Assembly: GCA_028284865.1 (NCBI GenBank)
Contig: JANQQV010000020.1
Coordinates: 248,001 to 312,000 of the forward strand
Direction: 5' to 3'
DNA length: 64,000 bases
Source of the DNA: Rhodothermales bacterium
GTDB lineage: Bacteria > Bacteroidota > Rhodothermia > Rhodothermales > UBA10348
How positions within the stretch are numbered: position 1 is the stretch's first letter; each line of letters begins with the position of its first letter. Below are positions 24,326 to 37,937 of the stretch, in pieces. The notes beneath the pieces are model-generated. The model was given only the letters and a program-made list of their open reading frames with translations, had not been told where the DNA came from and ran no database searches. The position numbers and the translations under genes are program-made.

Positions 24326-26779
24326 CTACTCGAGGAACAGATCCTTGGTCATGTCGACGTCGCGCCCGCTGACCGTATCGGAGATGGTCACTTTCAGCGT
24401 GTACAAACCGGATTCGAGATTGACCGCATCCAGGATGAGGTACTGACCGTCATCGGTAGCTTCGACGCTGATGGGTACTCCAGTCGAAACACCCTGGCCA
24501 CCACCGCCAAACATGCCACGCAGCGCTCGGCCAATACCGCTTCCGCTTTCACGAGGCGTCAGTTCGGCCTCCACTTCGTAGCGCGATACGCCTTCAGCAT
24601 CAGGCGTCAGGTTATACACCTCGAAGTAGATGTAAATCGGCTGATCCGTACCAAAAACGGTCCAGGGAGCTGGCTGGATGGAAAGGCCCTGGCGCAGGAT
24701 ATCCGAGCCACTGACCGGCATGCCATCAAAGCTCTCCTCGATTCTGTACGAAAGAAGGATGTCCGACATGGCCAGGTCACTGCCCGAGAAGTCGTGGACC
24801 GTCACTTCTCGACGCTGCACGGCTACCGTACCGCCACCCGTGGTCTCGAATTCAACCGAGACCTCGTGCTCGCCAGGAGGCGTGCTCATGTGCTCGGTGT
24901 CCACCCACAGATTCGATTCATCGAATCGCACAATCTGTGAGGTTGGCAAGCCATACACGGTCCGTCGACGCTCAACCAGAATGTCCCGGTTGTCGGCCAC
25001 CACGAACGTTCCCGCATTTGCCGTGATGTTGATGAACTCAGCACCGGGATCGTACGCATCCGTGATCGGAATGGCGTAATTGACATAGAGGTCTGTATTT
25101 CCATCCGTCCCTTTGAACGCAGCTACGGCATACGGAAGCTCGATCTGACGACCTGGAGCCTCGTATTCGTACCGCTCGGGGGTCTCGCGGATGGTCTCTT
25201 CTGCCTTGATGATGTAGTCGTTGATGTACGGGATGGCCCCTTCCGAGATATCGGAAGCCGATGGGCTGTAGAGTCGGAATTCGCCGTTGCGGAATGGATC
25301 CTCGAAAACGAACTGGAATTCTCCGTAGTCCCAGATATTGTAGGTGTTCGCTTCTTCGAACATGTCCCAACCCGAGCCAAAACGGCCCACGTTCATGGCG
25401 ACGCCTACGTCGGCGGCCGAATCGTCAATCGAGGTGCCCGTTCGTTCAGGCGTTCCCATCATGACGCCAGACTGGGAGCGCGGAATGATAATGACGTCTC
25501 CTTGCGGAATGCCGTAGCGCACCAGGATCTCTCCACGACGGGTATTCCACCCTTTCATGTCGAGCTTGGACGACCCATAGAGGAGGTCGGCGTACGTCAG
25601 ACGAGCATAATGCTCCATCTTCCGCTCATTGTAGGGCGTCAGATAGCGAGGATCCTTTGAAGTCCAGAACCGCGATGTATAGCCGGCTTCGTCCGCCCGG
25701 TACGCCTCGAGTTCGTCCTTGGGAAGGATATTCTCGATGTGGTTGTACGCATAGGCCGTCTCTGAATCCATGAATCGGAAGGACGTCTCGAATGACTTCG
25801 ACGCCGCGTCCATGTTGCCTGCATGGTAGTGAGCATACCCGAGGTACGTCCACAACTCCGGATCCTCCGGGAAGAAGACATACATCTGAGAAAGCATGTT
25901 CAGCGCCTCATCGTACTCCCCTTTCAGCGCGAAAATCTCCATGAGGTGATCGTACACCGTACGCTGTCTGGGATCAGACTCCAGAGCTGAATTCAGATGG
26001 AAAATGGCCCGGTCATACGCGACTTGTGCGCGACCCGAGAGATCAACAACGGGAATTCCCTGATCTGACAGAGCTTCCACGTCAAACTCGTCGGCCATGA
26101 AGACCTGATTCGGATTCCAGGTCGGCCCGGCCTGGGAAAAGGTCTCTGGAATCTCTGATTCGACGATGCCTCCGTTGGCCTGATCAAACAGATTGGCCTG
26201 GTCCACGAGGTACCCCGCCATCGGGTCGTACTCCATGCGCGAGCGGTACTCAGCGGTCAGGAAGTCCAATGCCGGGTACATCAGGGCATTGCGATATCTC
26301 CAGAAGTCCCGGATGTATACCTCTCCGAGTTCTTCGTGGGCGAACGAGTTGGACTCGTCAATCTTGAGAATGTCTATCGCCAGTCGGCGACGACGTGCTT
26401 CACGGGACTGATCGATGATGAACAGCTCGGAATCGGCACGCAGCTGCTGCAACAAGGCAACCATGAATTGGACATTGCCCGGCTCGATTTCGAGAGCCGA
26501 TTCCAGGTAGTTTCCTGCTTTCTTGACGTCTCGGAGATCGGTTTCCCAATACAGACGAGCCAGCAAGAAGTAGGCTTCTGCGTTTTCAGGGTTGTCCTTC
26601 AAGGCCTGCTCGAAGTGAGCAACGGCAGCGGCATGTTCACCACCACGGAAGGCCATAATCCCTTCCGTCATCGGGTCGCCATCTTGTGCCGAAACCGGCG
26701 TGGCAATCAACAATGCCGCCAGGAAAAGTCCCGACAAGCGGGCCCAACGGGATCGAGCGTCAGCTTTCATCGCTGTCAT
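24326..26779 (-). CDS. GWxTD-domain exported protein with TPR-like N-terminus (second copy)
   Basis: 817 residues from the preferred ATG at 26779; the frame is open to an ATG at 26830. A signal peptide (RLSGLFLAALLIATPVSAQ, then DGD) is followed by TPR-like helical repeats (about 35-370; AAVAHFEQALKDNPENAEAY, DPELWTYLGYAHYHAGNMDA). The GWxTD domain follows, with FWTSKDPRYLTPYNERKMEH, then GWNTRRGEILVRYGIPQG near residue 410. The C-terminal beta-rich half (about 480-817) has no assigned function. The domain is typical of Bacteroidota and its role is unknown. It closes a four-gene cluster whose first gene is a paralogue. The GW motif reads GWNTR rather than GWxTD. Confidence 0.82.
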   Translation of the reverse strand: MTAMKADARSRWARLSGLFLAALLIATPVSAQDGDPMTEGIMAFRGGEHAAAVAHFEQALKDNPENAEAYFLLARLYWETDLRDVKKAGNYLESALEIEPGNVQFMVALLQQLRADSELFIIDQSREARRRRLAIDILKIDESNSFAHEELGEVYIRDFWRYRNALMYPALDFLTAEYRSRMEYDPMAGYLVDQANLFDQANGGIVESEIPETFSQAGPTWNPNQVFMADEFDVEALSDQGIPVVDLSGRAQVAYDRAIFHLNSALESDPRQRTVYDHLMEIFALKGEYDEALNMLSQMYVFFPEDPELWTYLGYAHYHAGNMDAASKSFETSFRFMDSETAYAYNHIENILPKDELEAYRADEAGYTSRFWTSKDPRYLTPYNERKMEHYARLTYADLLYGSSKLDMKGWNTRRGEILVRYGIPQGDVIIIPRSQSGVMMGTPERTGTSIDDSAADVGVAMNVGRFGSGWDMFEEANTYNIWDYGEFQFVFEDPFRNGEFRLYSPSASDISEGAIPYINDYIIKAEETIRETPERYEYEAPGRQIELPYAVAAFKGTDGNTDLYVNYAIPITDAYDPGAEFINITANAGTFVVADNRDILVERRRTVYGLPTSQIVRFDESNLWVDTEHMSTPPGEHEVSVEFETTGGGTVAVQRREVTVHDFSGSDLAMSDILLSYRIEESFDGMPVSGSDILRQGLSIQPAPWTVFGTDQPIYIYFEVYNLTPDAEGVSRYEVEAELTPRESGSGIGRALRGMFGGGGQGVSTGVPISVEATDDGQYLILDAVNLESGLYTLKVTISDTVSGRDVDMTKDLFLE

Positions 26780-26834
26780 ACGGATTGGAATCTCAAAATC
26801 TGTTTTTAAAGGCAGACTGATAGGACGCATCCGA

Positions 26835-27743
26835 TCACTCTACCGAAAAGCCGGCGTTGCGAGTGGCCTCATCGTCCAGTTCGAACTGGAAGCGATCGAA
26901 ATATCCCCCACCAACAAAGCCAAAACCGTCAGTTACGTTCGAAAACGTCCCGGGTTGGACCAGTAATTCTGGATCGAATGATCCCACTGGACTGACCCAG
27001 TCTTCTGAGGTCACAAAGGCTCGAACTTCGATCATATCCAGAATTACCGGAAGTCGACCGGGTTCGATGTTGAGGATGGTAAAGACGTTTCCAATATCTG
27101 CCGAAGGAAGTATAGAAACGCGCCAGGTACCATCGCTGTTCTCTTCTACACGACTGCGCTTAATATCCACCCGAACGGTTGTGGTGTCACTTCGATCGGG
27201 GAACGGTACACGGACGAAATAGCTGACCTCAGCCTGAATGACGCGAGGCACGTTCGCCCAGGTCAAATCCACCTGTACCTGGCTCCTGGCAGAAAAGACG
27301 TTTGCGATGGACGCTTCACCGTCTGGAGGCGTCAGAATGTCCACCGTCGTTGTGCGCCCATCGGAGCGGGTGGCTGACAGCGTGTATGGCGTTTCGTGTT
27401 CAGCTTGGAATCGGGCGTAGTAGACATGTCCCACGCTTCGATCATCAAATGTGATTACTGAGTCGCGCCAAACCACCTCCTCTCCCGTGCGACGATTGAT
27501 CGAGCGAATTTCGGCGTCCAGTGGTTCTGCGGCGGTGTTCAGCAACAACCCATCGATCGAGTAGACACGGATAGCCTGAATGTCAGCTGAAGGATCCAAA
27601 AATCCGTACAACGAGAACGCCTCGTCGGTCTCGAGAACCGGATCGACGGCCTCTTCACAGCCGGTGCCAGTCCAAACCATGAGTAACAGACCGAGGCCCA
27701 GTACCCAGGACATCAAACGGGGGTTGAATGATCGCTTGCTCAT
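26835..27743 (-). CDS. Putative lipoprotein, DUF4249-like, partner of TonB receptor
   Basis: 302 residues. An N-terminal hydrophobic stretch ends in TGTGCEE, with C29 as the likely lipid-modified cysteine; the lipobox is imperfect (Gly at -3). The remainder is beta-rich, starting with an AFSLYGFLDPSADIQAIRVY segment like that of DUF4249 proteins, which are usually encoded beside TonB-dependent receptors. Its start overlaps the receptor stop by 4 bases (ATGA), so the two are probably made together. The assignment to DUF4249 rests on this context and overall pattern, not on a clear motif. A generic surface lipoprotein is the fallback. Confidence 0.65.
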   Translation of the reverse strand: MSKRSFNPRLMSWVLGLGLLLMVWTGTGCEEAVDPVLETDEAFSLYGFLDPSADIQAIRVYSIDGLLLNTAAEPLDAEIRSINRRTGEEVVWRDSVITFDDRSVGHVYYARFQAEHETPYTLSATRSDGRTTTVDILTPPDGEASIANVFSARSQVQVDLTWANVPRVIQAEVSYFVRVPFPDRSDTTTVRVDIKRSRVEENSDGTWRVSILPSADIGNVFTILNIEPGRLPVILDMIEVRAFVTSEDWVSPVGSFDPELLVQPGTFSNVTDGFGFVGGGYFDRFQFELDDEATRNAGFSVE

Positions 27744-30058
27744 TGATCCATCTCCAGTTTGAGTCCAATCGTCGGAATGAACGGCAGCTGATCTACCCGA
27801 CGCAAAGTGAATACGTCCAGATAGAACAGATTCTGGCGATCATACATGTTGATCACGCCTGCGAGGGCTGTCAGGCGTGAATTGCCCGGCAGCACCATTT
27901 CGCGCTGGAAGGTGATGTCCAATCGGTGGTAAGTCGGAAGAATACCGTTGTACGGCTCCTCGTAAATCACGCGACGATTGCCTGGGTCGTCAAACACGTC
28001 CAGATCGCCATCAACCACCATGAACCCGTCAAATCCGAGCGCGCGACTGTAGGGCAAGCCTGAGCCGAACTGCCAGCGCACGTCAATATCGAATGGCTTC
28101 AGGTCCAATGACGCCACGGCATTGATTTGATGTCGTCGGTCATGCGCCGGGCGAAAATCGAGTTCGTCGCTGCCGTACCAGAGGGCGATGGCCTCTTGCT
28201 TGGCAGTATACCGGACATTCGATAGGCCATAGGTGATGAATCCGTTGAACCGCTTCCGGTTGTATTGCACCCGGAAATCGGCTCCAAAAACTCTTCCTTC
28301 TGCTGGCTGGATGCGGGTGGTGAAGCGCGGATAGGCCGTCCATTCAGGGATGAACAAGTTGTTGAGCTTCTTGGCCCAGCCCTCCACGCTGACCTCCAGT
28401 CTCTGATTCACTGCCCGTCTGTACCCGGCGATGGCATGAATCGCTTCCGGTACACCCTGATCAAACGTGCTTGTCGTCCACGCTGTAAAGACACCGGCTG
28501 CATCACGTCGGTCGGTGAGCCCAACAATTTCCTGATGGAACATGCCGGCTGCGAGGGTGAATTCATCCCGATCACGGACTTTCACGGCACGGAATCGAGG
28601 TTCAAGGAATCCAGTGTCCTGACTCGGGAATGAGTGGATCCTGAATCCGGCGCGAACTTGCCAACCCCAGGGCAACATGAACTCGGGCTCGAGATAGGCG
28701 CCCACTTCAGTAGCGTATTCCTTGCGGAAGAAGAAGCCCTGATACAAACCGTCCAGACTGCTTTGCAGCTCAAGCGTCCTGGCGAACAACCCCCAACGCA
28801 CTTCCGAATTGCGATGGAAGTGGGTCACATTTACCGTCGTGTTTGCACTGGAAAGCTTCGAGAATCGGACTTCCTCGGTGATCCCTGACTGGGACGACTT
28901 CAGCCGCGAACCCGAAAGAATGAATTCGGCCATGATGGGAAACGCGCGCGGGAAGACCAGGTAGCGCGCTGAAACGGCCCGGTTTTCCCACTCCACGAAT
29001 TCCGGGTCCTCGAGGTCATTGCCTTCGAATACCGAGCCCCTGTCGTTGGTGCGAAGAAGCGAAAGGGACAGCTGCGTGTTCGCATTCACGTATGCGTGCG
29101 TCTTCGCAAACAGGTCGTCGAATTCGAACGGCAGGTCGTCATCAACCAGTCTGGCAGCCCCCTGCTCGATCACACTCTGGCGATAGGACACGAGGAACGA
29201 GACGTAATCATCCGCAATCGGACCTTCCAGGGTGAATCCTGACACGAAAGGAGCTGCCGAAAGCGATCCCGCATACCCTTTCTTGTCCCCATTGCGACTC
29301 TTGATATCGATGACAGAGGAAATGCGCCCGCCATACTGACTGGTGAATCCACCTGCATAGATGTCCACTTGCTGGAGGATGTCTGTCGGGAACGCGGAAA
29401 AGAATCCGAGGATGTGGAAGGGCTGATAGATCCACATGCCGTCGAGCAGGACCAGGTTCTGCCAGGGTTCGCCACCGCGGATGAACAGCTGTCCTCCTCG
29501 ATCTCCGATGGATACGATGCCGGGAACGGTTGTCAGATAATTGACCAGATCGCCAGAGACATCGGGAGAAGGAATACGCTCGACGTCTGCCGGACGCAAT
29601 GTGGTTTGTCCTGCCAGCACGCGCGCCATTCCTGCATCAGAGTCGCCTTCGACCACTACTTCGTCCAGCTCCGTCTCCCCTGCAGCCAGTACAATATTGA
29701 TGATGCGGCGGTCGGCAGCACCCATGTCCAGTTCCTGCTCCCACGTTTCGAAACCGATGAACGTGGCCCGCATCGTGTAGACGCCAGGAGAAATATCAGC
29801 GATGGCATAAATCCCGTCAGTACCTGATGCCGTGCCCGTGATGAGTTGGTCACCCTGGAAAAGAGTCACGTTCACGCCCTGAAGCGGTTCTCCGTCATCC
29901 TCTGCGACGACCGTTCCTCGAACAATCGACTGCTGGGCAACGGATGGCAGTGCCAGAAAAACAGCCAACAGAAAACACGTCACGCCGTGAATCAACACGG
30001 AATGCCGTCTTTTCGGGAAGGACTGGTCTCTCAGCATGTTCTGGGGGGTCTGTGCCAT
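27740..30058 (-). CDS. TonB-dependent outer-membrane receptor with carboxypeptidase-regulatory-like domain
   Basis: 772 residues from the preferred ATG at 30058, which lies 10 bases after the upstream stop; a longer frame to 30175 would overlap that gene. A signal peptide (about 20-41, ending ALPSVAQQ) is followed by a carboxypeptidase-D-regulatory-like fold (about 43-120; VRGTVVAEDDGEPLQGVNVT). The plug domain has DLVNYLTTVPGIVSIGDRGG and LFIRGGEPWQNLVLLDG, and a long beta-barrel ends in LEMDQ. It imports an unknown substrate across the outer membrane using TonB energy. The substrate cannot be read from the sequence. It is flanked by GWxTD genes and coupled to the lipoprotein gene. Confidence 0.88.
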   Translation of the reverse strand: MAQTPQNMLRDQSFPKRRHSVLIHGVTCFLLAVFLALPSVAQQSIVRGTVVAEDDGEPLQGVNVTLFQGDQLITGTASGTDGIYAIADISPGVYTMRATFIGFETWEQELDMGAADRRIINIVLAAGETELDEVVVEGDSDAGMARVLAGQTTLRPADVERIPSPDVSGDLVNYLTTVPGIVSIGDRGGQLFIRGGEPWQNLVLLDGMWIYQPFHILGFFSAFPTDILQQVDIYAGGFTSQYGGRISSVIDIKSRNGDKKGYAGSLSAAPFVSGFTLEGPIADDYVSFLVSYRQSVIEQGAARLVDDDLPFEFDDLFAKTHAYVNANTQLSLSLLRTNDRGSVFEGNDLEDPEFVEWENRAVSARYLVFPRAFPIMAEFILSGSRLKSSQSGITEEVRFSKLSSANTTVNVTHFHRNSEVRWGLFARTLELQSSLDGLYQGFFFRKEYATEVGAYLEPEFMLPWGWQVRAGFRIHSFPSQDTGFLEPRFRAVKVRDRDEFTLAAGMFHQEIVGLTDRRDAAGVFTAWTTSTFDQGVPEAIHAIAGYRRAVNQRLEVSVEGWAKKLNNLFIPEWTAYPRFTTRIQPAEGRVFGADFRVQYNRKRFNGFITYGLSNVRYTAKQEAIALWYGSDELDFRPAHDRRHQINAVASLDLKPFDIDVRWQFGSGLPYSRALGFDGFMVVDGDLDVFDDPGNRRVIYEEPYNGILPTYHRLDITFQREMVLPGNSRLTALAGVINMYDRQNLFYLDVFTLRRVDQLPFIPTIGLKLEMDQ

Positions 30059-30068
30059 GTGGTTTTCG

Positions 30069-32294
30069 TCAATCGATTCTGATTTCTCTTCTGGCAACAA
30101 TCTGTCGGCCGGAGGCCCTCTCAGTAAACCGGATGGCGATCGTGTACAAACCCGGCTCGAGGTCCTCCGTTTCAAGAATCAGCGGTCGTCCATGCGAATT
30201 CGAGTGGATCTCATCGACGAATGCCACCGATACCGCAGCATCGTCGCGGCTTCGAAACAGGCGGCCCAGGAAGGATGATCCAACGGATGCGGATCCGCCC
30301 TCGGCCAAGATCGCTTCGATAGCCAGCTCACCACCTTCTCGATGATCGAGCCCGTACACTTCGGCGTACAGGTTGATGGCCATTCCCCGATTTGTGCGAG
30401 GCTCTGCTACGGGGCGAATCAGCAGGTCGTTGCGGACCAGCATGCCCTCGGGTATCGGTTCGGTAGCATCATGCTCTACAATCAGATCGGCGAACAGGAT
30501 GTCAGAAGCCCGCATGGATCGGGCGTCTTGTTCTGCTTCCGCGATGTCGAAACGGCCGACGCTCCAGAAATCACCGTCGCGGATCTCCAGGGAGAATTGC
30601 CGGGCGCGCCCGTCCGTATTCATGACAGCCAACGCAGAAGGACAACCACTCGCGTTCAGAATCGGCGATGTGCCCGAGGCCGGAGGGACGGGCGCGCCAA
30701 CCAAGCGGTCAAAGGTTTGCAAGGAGTCTCCTCTGCTGAATGCGGCACCCTTGATGCAAATTGGAGCGATCACCGTGCGACCCTCCTCATCCTCAAAGAC
30801 CGAGGGAAGGACTTCCAAGGTCAGCTTGCCCAGGGTTTCGAGATCCGATTCAAGCGGGTTGTCCCGGAATTGCTCTTTGGCCTGTAGTGCCCAGTCAGAC
30901 GCCACAATGGCTCGACCACCTTGGTAATGGTCGGCTGGCGGAGAATAGAAAATCGGTTTCCCGGCCTTCGCAAGGTCCTGAAAGATCCAGTATCGGTTAC
31001 CGTAGTGCAGAATGTGGAATCGGTCTCCTCCCTGCTGATTGATTTCTGACCCGGTCTGGAATTGCAGCCTGGCCTCGGGAAAACCGTATCGAATCAACAC
31101 TTGGCCAGGCTCCGTCTCCCAGCCCCGCATATCCAACTCCGGCCGGCCCCAAATCACATCCGCATAGGCCATGCGACCCATGTGCTCAGTGCGTCGCTCG
31201 TTTCCAGGACGTGACCATTCCCGATCTTGTCGAATCCAAAAGTCGTTCATCTCGGCATCCGTCACTTCGCGATACCCGGACGCGACTTCGGTGCTGACAA
31301 CTGATTGAGGATTCAACCATGGATGCCGGTCTTCCTCATCCATCAGATTGAGTGCCTGCTCGAACGCTTCCTCAGCCTGCTGGTCATTTATCAGCATGTA
31401 GTTGAGCAAGCCCAGCAACAAGTGACCCCTTGATGACTCGGGGTACATCGATACGTATTCCTTCAAGAGGAACTCCCCGTCCCGGACACGCCCTCCGCGG
31501 ATAGTCGCCTCCGTCATGTAGCGCACTGCGACCGATCGCAACGGGCCCCTTGCAGACGCACGAATCAAAGCCCGAATGGCGTTTTCCGACACCTCGTGCA
31601 TCGGATCGTCATTGCGCAAGACCATGATGTCGTCTGCACCACGATCACTTCTGAATGCTATCTGACCGGTGGATCGATCGAGCACCGCGGTTGCCTCGTA
31701 GAACAGCATCTCGGAAATGTCTCCCATGCCGACCCCGAGCGTGAGGCGGACGGCGTTATCCAGGGCACGTTGATCTTCGAGACGAAGCATGCCGACAACC
31801 AGATTGGCAATCGGATCACTCGGATCTGCTTCCAATAGCTCTTTGGCGCGCCCCAACTGGAGTCGCTCGCGGACAGTGGGCATGAAGCTGGATCCGTACC
31901 GATAGTCCTTCCACAGATCCAAAGCTTCCACATCGGCATCCTTTCGCCGATCTCGGGGCAATTTGCGTAGAAGGCGTCCTGCTTCAGCGGCATCAACACT
32001 CGGCCCGAACAAGAGGGCGGCTGCCTTCAGAATCAGGGCGTTCTCGTCCCGAGGCCATCGCTCCAGCAACTCGTTGGCCTGCTCAATAACGGTGGCGTAG
32101 TCCCCCTCGGCCAGTGCGGCCTGGGCAGCTTGAGTTCTGGCTTCGCGCGTCATCACATCCGGATTGGACGTTTGACCTTGAACCAACCTCACGTCACCCA
32201 GCGCCAGAAAAATGACGAACAGCATCGACCACAGTACCATCTGGGATCGCCGCTCGTAGCCTTTTCTGGGAGTTTCGCTCGTCACTTGGTTCAA
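30069..32294 (-). CDS. GWxTD-domain exported protein with TPR-like N-terminus (first copy)
   Basis: 741 residues. The N-terminal hydrophobic segment (about 19-41, MVLWSMLFVIFLALGDVRLV) is a signal peptide or anchor. TPR-like repeats follow (about 50-330; AALAEGDYATVIEQANELLE). The GWxTD domain has FWIRQDREWSRPGNERRTEH and GWETEPGQVLIRYGFPEA near residue 390. The beta-rich C-terminus resembles that of the gene at 24326-26779 (both end with a ..GLYT(I/L).. then ..SGR..... pattern), so the two are paralogues. It is the first gene of the leftward cluster. The function of the GWxTD family is not established. Confidence 0.82.
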   Translation of the reverse strand: MNQVTSETPRKGYERRSQMVLWSMLFVIFLALGDVRLVQGQTSNPDVMTREARTQAAQAALAEGDYATVIEQANELLERWPRDENALILKAAALLFGPSVDAAEAGRLLRKLPRDRRKDADVEALDLWKDYRYGSSFMPTVRERLQLGRAKELLEADPSDPIANLVVGMLRLEDQRALDNAVRLTLGVGMGDISEMLFYEATAVLDRSTGQIAFRSDRGADDIMVLRNDDPMHEVSENAIRALIRASARGPLRSVAVRYMTEATIRGGRVRDGEFLLKEYVSMYPESSRGHLLLGLLNYMLINDQQAEEAFEQALNLMDEEDRHPWLNPQSVVSTEVASGYREVTDAEMNDFWIRQDREWSRPGNERRTEHMGRMAYADVIWGRPELDMRGWETEPGQVLIRYGFPEARLQFQTGSEINQQGGDRFHILHYGNRYWIFQDLAKAGKPIFYSPPADHYQGGRAIVASDWALQAKEQFRDNPLESDLETLGKLTLEVLPSVFEDEEGRTVIAPICIKGAAFSRGDSLQTFDRLVGAPVPPASGTSPILNASGCPSALAVMNTDGRARQFSLEIRDGDFWSVGRFDIAEAEQDARSMRASDILFADLIVEHDATEPIPEGMLVRNDLLIRPVAEPRTNRGMAINLYAEVYGLDHREGGELAIEAILAEGGSASVGSSFLGRLFRSRDDAAVSVAFVDEIHSNSHGRPLILETEDLEPGLYTIAIRFTERASGRQIVARREIRID

Positions 32295-35680: not shown

Positions 35681-36541
35681 TCAGGAATCTTTCTTTTCGT
35701 CGCCGTCTTCGGCAGCCTCTTCAGCAGCAGCTTCTTCAGCCGGTGCTTCTTCAGCGGCAGCTTCTTCAGCAGCAGGCTCTTCAGCCGGTGCTTCTTCGGC
35801 GGCAGCTTCTTCGGCAGCAGGCTCTTCAGCCGGTGCTTCTTCAGCGGCAGCTTCTTCGGCAGCAGGCTCTTCAGCGGGTGCTTCTTCAGCGGCAGCTTCT
35901 TCAGCAGCAGGCTCTTCAGCCGGTGCTTCTTCAGCGGCAGCCTCTTCAGCTGGAGCTTCTTCGGCGGCAGGGGTAGCATCGGCTGCTTCCTGCTCGGCGT
36001 TTGCTTCAGCCTGTTCGGCCTGCGCTTCAGCTGCGGCTGCTTCGCGCTCGGCTTCGGCTGCGGCCAGAGCGGCTTCAGCTTCTTCCTTGGCTTTCGCAGC
36101 AGCTTCTGCCTGCTGTTTGGCGATTTCTGCGGCGCGCTCTGAGGCGGCTTTCTCTTCCGCTGCCAATGTTGCTGCACGGCGCTCTTCCGCCGTCGGCTTG
36201 CGGGTATTGGCGGCCTTTTCTGCGCGCTGGGTCTTGTGCGCCTCGACGGCTGCATTGACCTCTTCTTCCGAGGCTCCCTTGCGGCGCATGTGGAGCGCCA
36301 GCATGACCCCTTCACGGCTCAGCAATGAGCGAACCGTGTCGCTCGGCTGCGCGCCGGTCTCGAGCCAGTACAGGCATCGATCGCTGTTGAGGGTAAGAGT
36401 TGCCGGCTCATCCAAAGGGTTGTACCGACCGAGATCCTCGATGTACCGTCCGTCACGCGGCGAACGTGCGTCTGCCGCTACAATTGCGTATACGGGGCGC
36501 TTCTTGCGTCCCATTCGTCTCAAACGAAGCTTAACTGCCAC
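35681..36541 (-). CDS. rpsP: 30S ribosomal protein S16 with long Ala/Glu/Pro C-terminal extension
   Basis: 286 residues from GTG at 36541; the frame is open to an ATG at 36595, but that would add residues absent from S16. Residues 1-85 are standard S16 ([34 protein letters not shown]). Then come about 30 conserved-looking residues, a Lys/Glu/Ala coiled-coil-like stretch (about 105-190), and an almost pure Ala/Glu/Pro tail (about 190-275) made of a 15-residue unit. It ends EDGDEKKDS. Bacteroidota S16 proteins commonly have a shorter extension; this one is far longer than the usual 80-90 residue protein. It lies between ffh and rimM. Confidence 0.93.
35741..35965 (-). repeat. Five 45-bp tandem repeats within rpsP
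   Basis: The plus-strand landmark CGGTGCTTCTTC (one copy reads GGGTG) recurs at 35741, 35786, 35831, 35876 and 35921, exactly 45 bases apart. The units are nearly identical and encode the 15-residue unit [15 protein letters not shown]. Partial units flank the array. Confidence 0.9.
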
Positions 36542-36584
36542 TTTTCTTGACTGCTGTTGATCTATTGAAATGGTTGGGGATGAA

Positions 36585-37937
36585 TCACTGACCACCCATC
36601 AGGGAGCCGAGGTCGAGGGATCGTCCCTTGCCCATCAGCTTGGTCATGGTCTTCATCATTTTCCGCATCTCCCGGAATTGCTTGAGAAGCTGGTTGACCT
36701 CCCTCACCTCGACACCCGCTCCACGCGCAATGCGACGTCGGCGGCTGCCGTTGATGATCTGAGGTTCACGACGCTCCTCCGGTGTCATCGAGTAGATGAT
36801 GGCTTCGATGTACTTGAAGGCATCGTCTTCGATGTCCAGGTCCTTGACCTGGCGACCCACTCCTGGAATCATGCCGACGAGATCCTTCATGGATCCCATC
36901 TTCTTCAGCCGATTCAGCTGATCCAGAAAATCCTCGAGATCAAAACTCTCTGATCGGATCTTCTTTTGAAGCTTCTCGGCCTGTTTCTCATCAAACTGTT
37001 CCTGTGCTTTCTCTACCAGGGAAACAACGTCTCCCATCCCGAGAATCCGCTGCGCCATTCGTTCCGGATAGAACGGAGTGAGCGCATCCATCTTCTCGCC
37101 GGTAGAGGCGAACTTGATCGGCTTCTCTACAACCTTCCGGATGGAAAGCGCGGCGCCACCGCGCGTATCCCCGTCCAGCTTCGTGAGAACGACTCCATCA
37201 AAATTCAGTCGCTGATTGAACTCAACGGCAGTATTGACGGCATCCTGACCGGTCATGGCGTCCACGACAAACAGGATTTCGTCCGGGTCCACTGCCGACT
37301 TGATGTCGGAGACCTCGGTCATCATCCGTTCGTCCACGTGCAGTCGACCGGCCGTATCGATGATCAGGACATCCCGAGCTTCTTTGCGAGCGACCTGAAT
37401 GGCCTCCTTCGCAATTCGGACAGGATCCTGCACGATGCTGCCATCGGTTTCCCGCAGCGCGTAGACAGGCACTCCAACGGACTCGGCCACCATTTCCAAC
37501 TGATCGACTGCCGCCGGACGGTATACGTCGGCTGCCGCCAGCATGGGTGAGCGACCTTTTCCTTTGAAGTAGTTGGCAAGTTTGCCAGAGAACGTGGTTT
37601 TACCGGACCCTTGCAGTCCTGCAATCAGAATGACCGTTGGAGGCTGAGCCGAGAAGGAAATCTCCTCGTGGGTTTCGCCCAGGAAATAGACCAGCTCGTC
37701 GTAGACGATCTTGACCATCTGCTGACCGGGCGATACGGACGAGAGGACGTCCTGGCCCAGCGCTTTTTCCTTGATGCGCTCCGTGAAATCGCGCGCCACC
37801 TGATAGTTGACGTCAGCGTCCAACAAGGCACGCCGAATCTCGCGCATACTCTCGGCGATATTCAGCTCGGTGATCCGTCCCTGACCGCTCAGGGATCGTA
37901 AGGCACCTTCAAGTTTGTCGGATAGACTGTCAAACAT
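36585..37937 (-). CDS. ffh: Signal recognition particle protein Ffh
   Basis: 450 residues from ATG at 37937 ([16 protein letters not shown]); a longer frame to 38003 is unlikely. The NG GTPase has the P-loop [30 protein letters not shown], and [16 protein letters not shown]. The C-terminal M domain (about 300-450) binds 4.5S RNA and signal peptides. It ends in a short glycine-rich tail (SLMGGQ). It delivers nascent membrane proteins to FtsY. It is the first gene of the operon with rpsP, rimM, trmD and rplS. The 4.5S RNA gene is not seen here. Confidence 0.97.

Follow-up and report, generated by a model that had tools for sequence, protein, structure and literature searches.

Four genes were arranged on the minus strand between positions 24326 and 32294 of the window, the whole 64,000-nucleotide stretch of DNA from an uncultured Rhodothermales bacterium that was analysed, in the order GWxTD protein B, TonB-dependent receptor T, DUF4249-like predicted lipoprotein D, and GWxTD protein A (Table 1). 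All four frames were present on this strand with the order, coordinates, and tight spacing given in the preliminary description of the sequence. The cluster was flanked upstream by smpB and downstream by purE in convergent orientation. Because A, B, T, and D were conserved across genera, they were regarded as real genes. Public loci that encode close homologues carried the labels Rhodothermales, Rhodothermia, or Bacteroidota MAG. Elsewhere in the window, a ribosomal protein S16-like gene (35681-36595, minus strand), located between rimM-like and ffh-like genes, encoded a protein whose C-terminus runs out into a long stretch of Ala/Glu/Pro repeats.

Table 1. Genes and coding features of the GWxTD/TonB receptor cluster, in window coordinates.
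Feature	Position	Strand	Description
GWxTD-B	30069..32294	-	741 aa; start TTG 32294 or ATG 32240; TIGR04514 36.1 bits; signal peptide, TPR-like N-terminus, GWxTD domain, beta-rich C-terminus
GWxTD domain of B	31062..31268	-	motif GWETEPG (translation)
TonB-dependent receptor T	27740..30058	-	772 aa from ATG 30058; CarboxypepD_reg and Plug (Pfam); in the clade of locus receptors
D, DUF4249-like predicted lipoprotein	26835..27743	-	302 aa; two Ig/Fn3-like domains; invariant Cys29; weak DUF4249 match
Putative lipidation cysteine codon of D (Cys29)	27657..27659	-	invariant in 23 aligned relatives
GWxTD-A	24326..26830	-	834 aa; signal peptide, TPR superhelix, GWxTD domain, two C-terminal beta-sandwiches; TIGR04514 49.6 bits
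GWxTD domain of A	25502..25735	-	motif GWNTRRG; invariant columns in the alignment

The intergenic distances were +10 bases between B and T, -4 bases between T and D, and +4 bases between D and the first ATG of A, or +64 bases when A was read from ATG 26770. A longer form of T starting at TTG 30175 overlapped B. The T-D distance of -4 was shared by nearly all relatives, B and T lay within ~10 bases of each other where the start was clear, and the D-A distance ranged from 6 to 139; larger apparent B-T overlaps in relatives were a product of uncertain start codons. The overlapping or near-overlapping spacing was kept in six genera. Since the genes were equally close here and in relatives, the four are very likely co-transcribed as one operon, in agreement with the single transcript proposed earlier. 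A scan of the locus for promoters and terminators gave nothing above chance level.

Both GWxTD proteins exceeded the curated TIGR04514 cut-off of 28 bits. The TPR-like N-termini and beta-rich C-termini attributed to them were also borne out by TPR repeats N-terminal to the GWxTD domain, by a beta-rich C-terminus, and by a structural model of A. Neither protein matched PF20094 up to E 0.1, and the two classical GWxTD members of the same genome matched it at 47-50 bits. Judged by sequence, A and B form a divergent branch of the GWxTD family. They shared with classical members the core FW..DP...NER..E...R...GWxT..G...YG.P, whereas the classical proteins are mostly 430-550 aa in length with the domain near the C-terminus, and A and B are 741-834 aa in length with TPR N-termini and C-terminal beta-sandwiches. 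The last residue of the motif also differed, being Arg in A and Glu in B of the window instead of Asp.

In an alignment of 53 proteins, the invariant residues of A were concentrated in the GWxTD domain (Trp369, Pro374, Asn381, Glu382, Arg383, His387, Arg390, Gly407, Trp408, Gly413, Arg418, Tyr419, Gly420, and Pro422). B was less conserved than A. The model of A (53 sequences, pLDDT 82.4) was composed of an N-terminal TPR superhelix, a largely helical GWxTD region, and the two C-terminal beta-sandwiches. When this model was used as the query in Foldseek and VIA, only TPR proteins and common beta-sandwich proteins were retrieved, and the relatives of A with solved structures that were found by sequence were TPR chains only. 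The signal peptide of A was followed by a conserved Ala-Gln pair with no lipobox, which suggests a soluble periplasmic protein; A and B are both predicted to be exported to the periplasm in soluble form.

Of the 296 genomes sampled from the phylum, 175 contained GWxTD genes and about 40% lacked them. No described GWxTD function was found, and the literature searched contained no paper naming the family. Parts of these proteins also occurred by themselves: four tandem genes of ~420-480 aa (contig G050:C126, 3091-8758) resembled GWxTD-A in its C-terminal beta region alone (residues ~540-834), and similar stand-alone copies were present in other genomes of the same family (f15). In the vicinity of one classical GWxTD gene of the genome studied here (locus L206, 327-8011, plus strand), two secreted proteins were encoded that carry CHRD, cohesin, and cadherin-like domains as well as type IX sorting tails.

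The DUF4249 score of D was weak (17.9 bits, with a Pfam cut-off of 28.5), and a relative reached by the D profile at another locus, L332, scored 27.2 bits. Cys29 of D was followed by acidic residues, which is consistent with a lipoprotein. Lipoprotein export signals of Bacteroidota are known, and the putative surface location of D is based on them. The AlphaFold2 model of D (pLDDT 85.5) was almost entirely beta and contained two tandem Ig/Fn3-like domains; structure searches returned only generic Ig/Fn3 folds with Z below 8, and no convincing relative of solved structure was found by sequence.

The preliminary description had likened T and D to a SusCD-type uptake machine. The likeness to an uptake machine was retained, in that an outer-membrane TonB-linked channel is paired with a lipoprotein, whereas descent from SusCD was rejected. 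T scored 49.9 bits against the SusC/RagA model TIGR04056 (cut-off 368.25 bits), in its N-terminal part only. The SusD fold is helical, whereas the tandem Ig-like domains modelled for D are beta, and SusD was not among the Pfam matches of D up to E 0.1. By sequence and gene order, the pair instead probably corresponds to a known type of TonB receptor/DUF4249 pair, exemplified by BT2172-BT2173 of Bacteroides thetaiotaomicron, an operon conserved across dozens of genera in which disruption of either gene has similar consequences (PMC11003636). In both systems the direct neighbour of the receptor is a gene at least resembling DUF4249; they differ in that the pair described here was flanked by GWxTD genes and D fell below the Pfam cut-off. 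The DUF4249-like gene was located directly downstream of the subfamily receptor, with the 4-base overlap in the cluster and in the same order in at least three further T-D pairs of the same genome. The cluster, earlier put forward as a candidate for an undescribed envelope system, is not wholly undescribed; in it, a known kind of receptor pair is joined to an unstudied protein family.

Of 114 genomes of the order, 75 contained A. Where its surroundings were examined, A mostly adjoined smpB, sometimes with a tyrS gene, called from sequence, in between, and often purE. GWxTD-A therefore anchors the locus between smpB and purE, usually without a receptor. Most relatives had a B orthologue, situated between smpB and T. 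Within the family of the studied genome, most genera had the order B-T-D-A, three genomes (G001, G005, and G014) had T-D-A without B, and three genera forming one clade (g2, g7, and g8) had A alone, without B or T-D. Outside the family, B-A or A alone was usual, and one genome of family f11 (G047) contained pieces consistent with B-T-D-A on two contigs.

On the tree of A, the presence of T-D required three changes, such as a single gain plus two losses. The locus receptors grouped in a single clade of 20 rows (support 100/99), which was embedded among T-D pairs located elsewhere; the G047 receptor, available as two short pieces only, was too fragmentary to be placed. T-D probably entered the locus once in the family and was kept by six genera and missing from three. 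The nesting of the locus receptors, together with the additional pairs in the same genome, indicates that the GWxTD locus is the older part, into which T-D came as a module. A fixed four-gene system was thus not supported, since B was missing in some close relatives, three genera of the family lacked T-D, and GWxTD genes mostly stood without a receptor of this kind beside them. Receptor-free GWxTD genes in close relatives had been named beforehand as evidence against a tie to the receptor, and they occurred in part of the family, namely as A without T-D in g2, g7, and g8.

The preliminary description had also asked how often GWxTD genes and TonB receptors occur together. Apart from the A/B locus, 82 GWxTD loci were compared, 80 of them drawn from the order and phylum and two from the genome studied here. 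T and D were directly beside the GWxTD gene on the same strand in only three, and a further three had a receptor-like frame at greater distance. A general GWxTD-receptor association was rejected on this count. In family f3, seven genomes had no match to T or D, and the five of these that were scanned contained 4 to 6 GWxTD genes each; GWxTD proteins are thus not dependent on receptors of this type. Conversely, T-D pairs elsewhere in the sample had no GWxTD gene within about 1.5 kb.

The three positive loci nevertheless revealed two independent operons. In a genome of family f12 (G056; L332, 4790-13134, plus strand), the order was ftsY-GWxTD-T-D-D-D-fmt. GWxTD and T, and likewise T and D, overlapped there by 4 bases, three tandem DUF4249-like genes followed one receptor, and ftsY and fmt were named from their translations. 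The corresponding place in the genome studied here had ftsY-GWxTD-fmt with no T-D, indicating that T-D at L332 was a separate insertion. The GWxTD-T adjacency recurred in G084 and G085; it was present in three of three g32 genomes having the L332-type receptor. The other operon, in a genome of family f6 (G031; L323, 6895-13289, minus strand), had the order FecR-T-DUF4249-GWxTD with overlaps, and its DUF4249 protein scored 48.6 bits, above the Pfam cut-off. A second genus (G044, L377) had T-D-GWxTD in the same order as at L323, near pdxA. GWxTD genes have therefore joined T-D pairs separately at least three times in the order; in two of the three operons, the GWxTD paralogue and the receptor subfamily differed from those of the A/B locus, and each was conserved within its clade. 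With ~5 T-D pairs per ~3,500 genes, the probability of a same-strand neighbour was near 0.0015 per GWxTD gene, and chance alone would give about 0.1 to 0.15 such loci in a set of 82 (a rough calculation by hand). Two independent origins among the 82 loci, in addition to one at the A/B locus, exceeded this expectation, with the count made after the pattern had been seen.

The reading that we favour, at a probability of roughly 0.45, is functional coupling, in which one operon unites the T-D uptake pair with periplasmic GWxTD proteins that have been recruited repeatedly as accessory parts. The separate formation of such clusters suggests that GWxTD proteins may be helper parts of uptake systems. 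The earlier proposal that GWxTD proteins are tied to the receptor is thus kept as a plausible functional link, favoured by the repeated joining, from which physical cooperation would follow only by inference. The main rival, which follows closely in likelihood, is that only a promoter is shared: A, and B where present, would be housekeeping periplasmic proteins of the smpB-purE locus whose work has nothing to do with uptake, and a T-D module, having been duplicated, would have landed between them and used their transcript. The constant place of A between smpB and purE regardless of T-D agrees with this, as do the clade that retains A with neither B nor T-D and the wide occurrence of GWxTD genes in the phylum, T-D-free genomes included. 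Promoter sharing accounts less well for three independent operons, two of them clade-conserved and built from another paralogue and receptor subfamily, where only about 0.15 such loci among 82 were roughly expected.

It is unlikely, though it would suit the soluble TPR architecture with a signal peptide, that GWxTD proteins are general biogenesis factors for outer-membrane proteins or lipoproteins, acting as periplasmic chaperones with the receptor merely one client encoded alongside. The broad presence of the family in the phylum, the strong conservation of A across the order, and neighbours such as ftsY and smpB would fit such a role, whereas the annotated loci had no recognisable bam, lol, or skp-type gene as a neighbour, and the family was missing from about 40% of the genomes sampled in the phylum.

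If functional coupling holds, T would act as a gated channel in the outer membrane with D as a lipoprotein on its outer face, and the two would import a ligand together, by homology with BT2172-BT2173. A and B would most likely work as scaffolds where the outer membrane faces the periplasm, either assembling or steadying the receptor or receiving its cargo. The TPR superhelix could bind one partner while the two beta-sandwiches held a second.

The repeated, independent joining of GWxTD genes to a single class of TonB receptor in operons provides a concrete and testable lead on the GWxTD family, and suggests that the little-studied DUF4249-type receptors can have periplasmic partners. More tentatively than either coupling as such or promoter sharing, it may be that some of the DUF4249-type TonB uptake systems have a third, periplasmic component that has so far gone unnoticed, namely GWxTD proteins, recruited on three or more separate occasions. 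If so, this protein family, which occurs in more than half of the genomes sampled in its phylum, would gain its first testable role.
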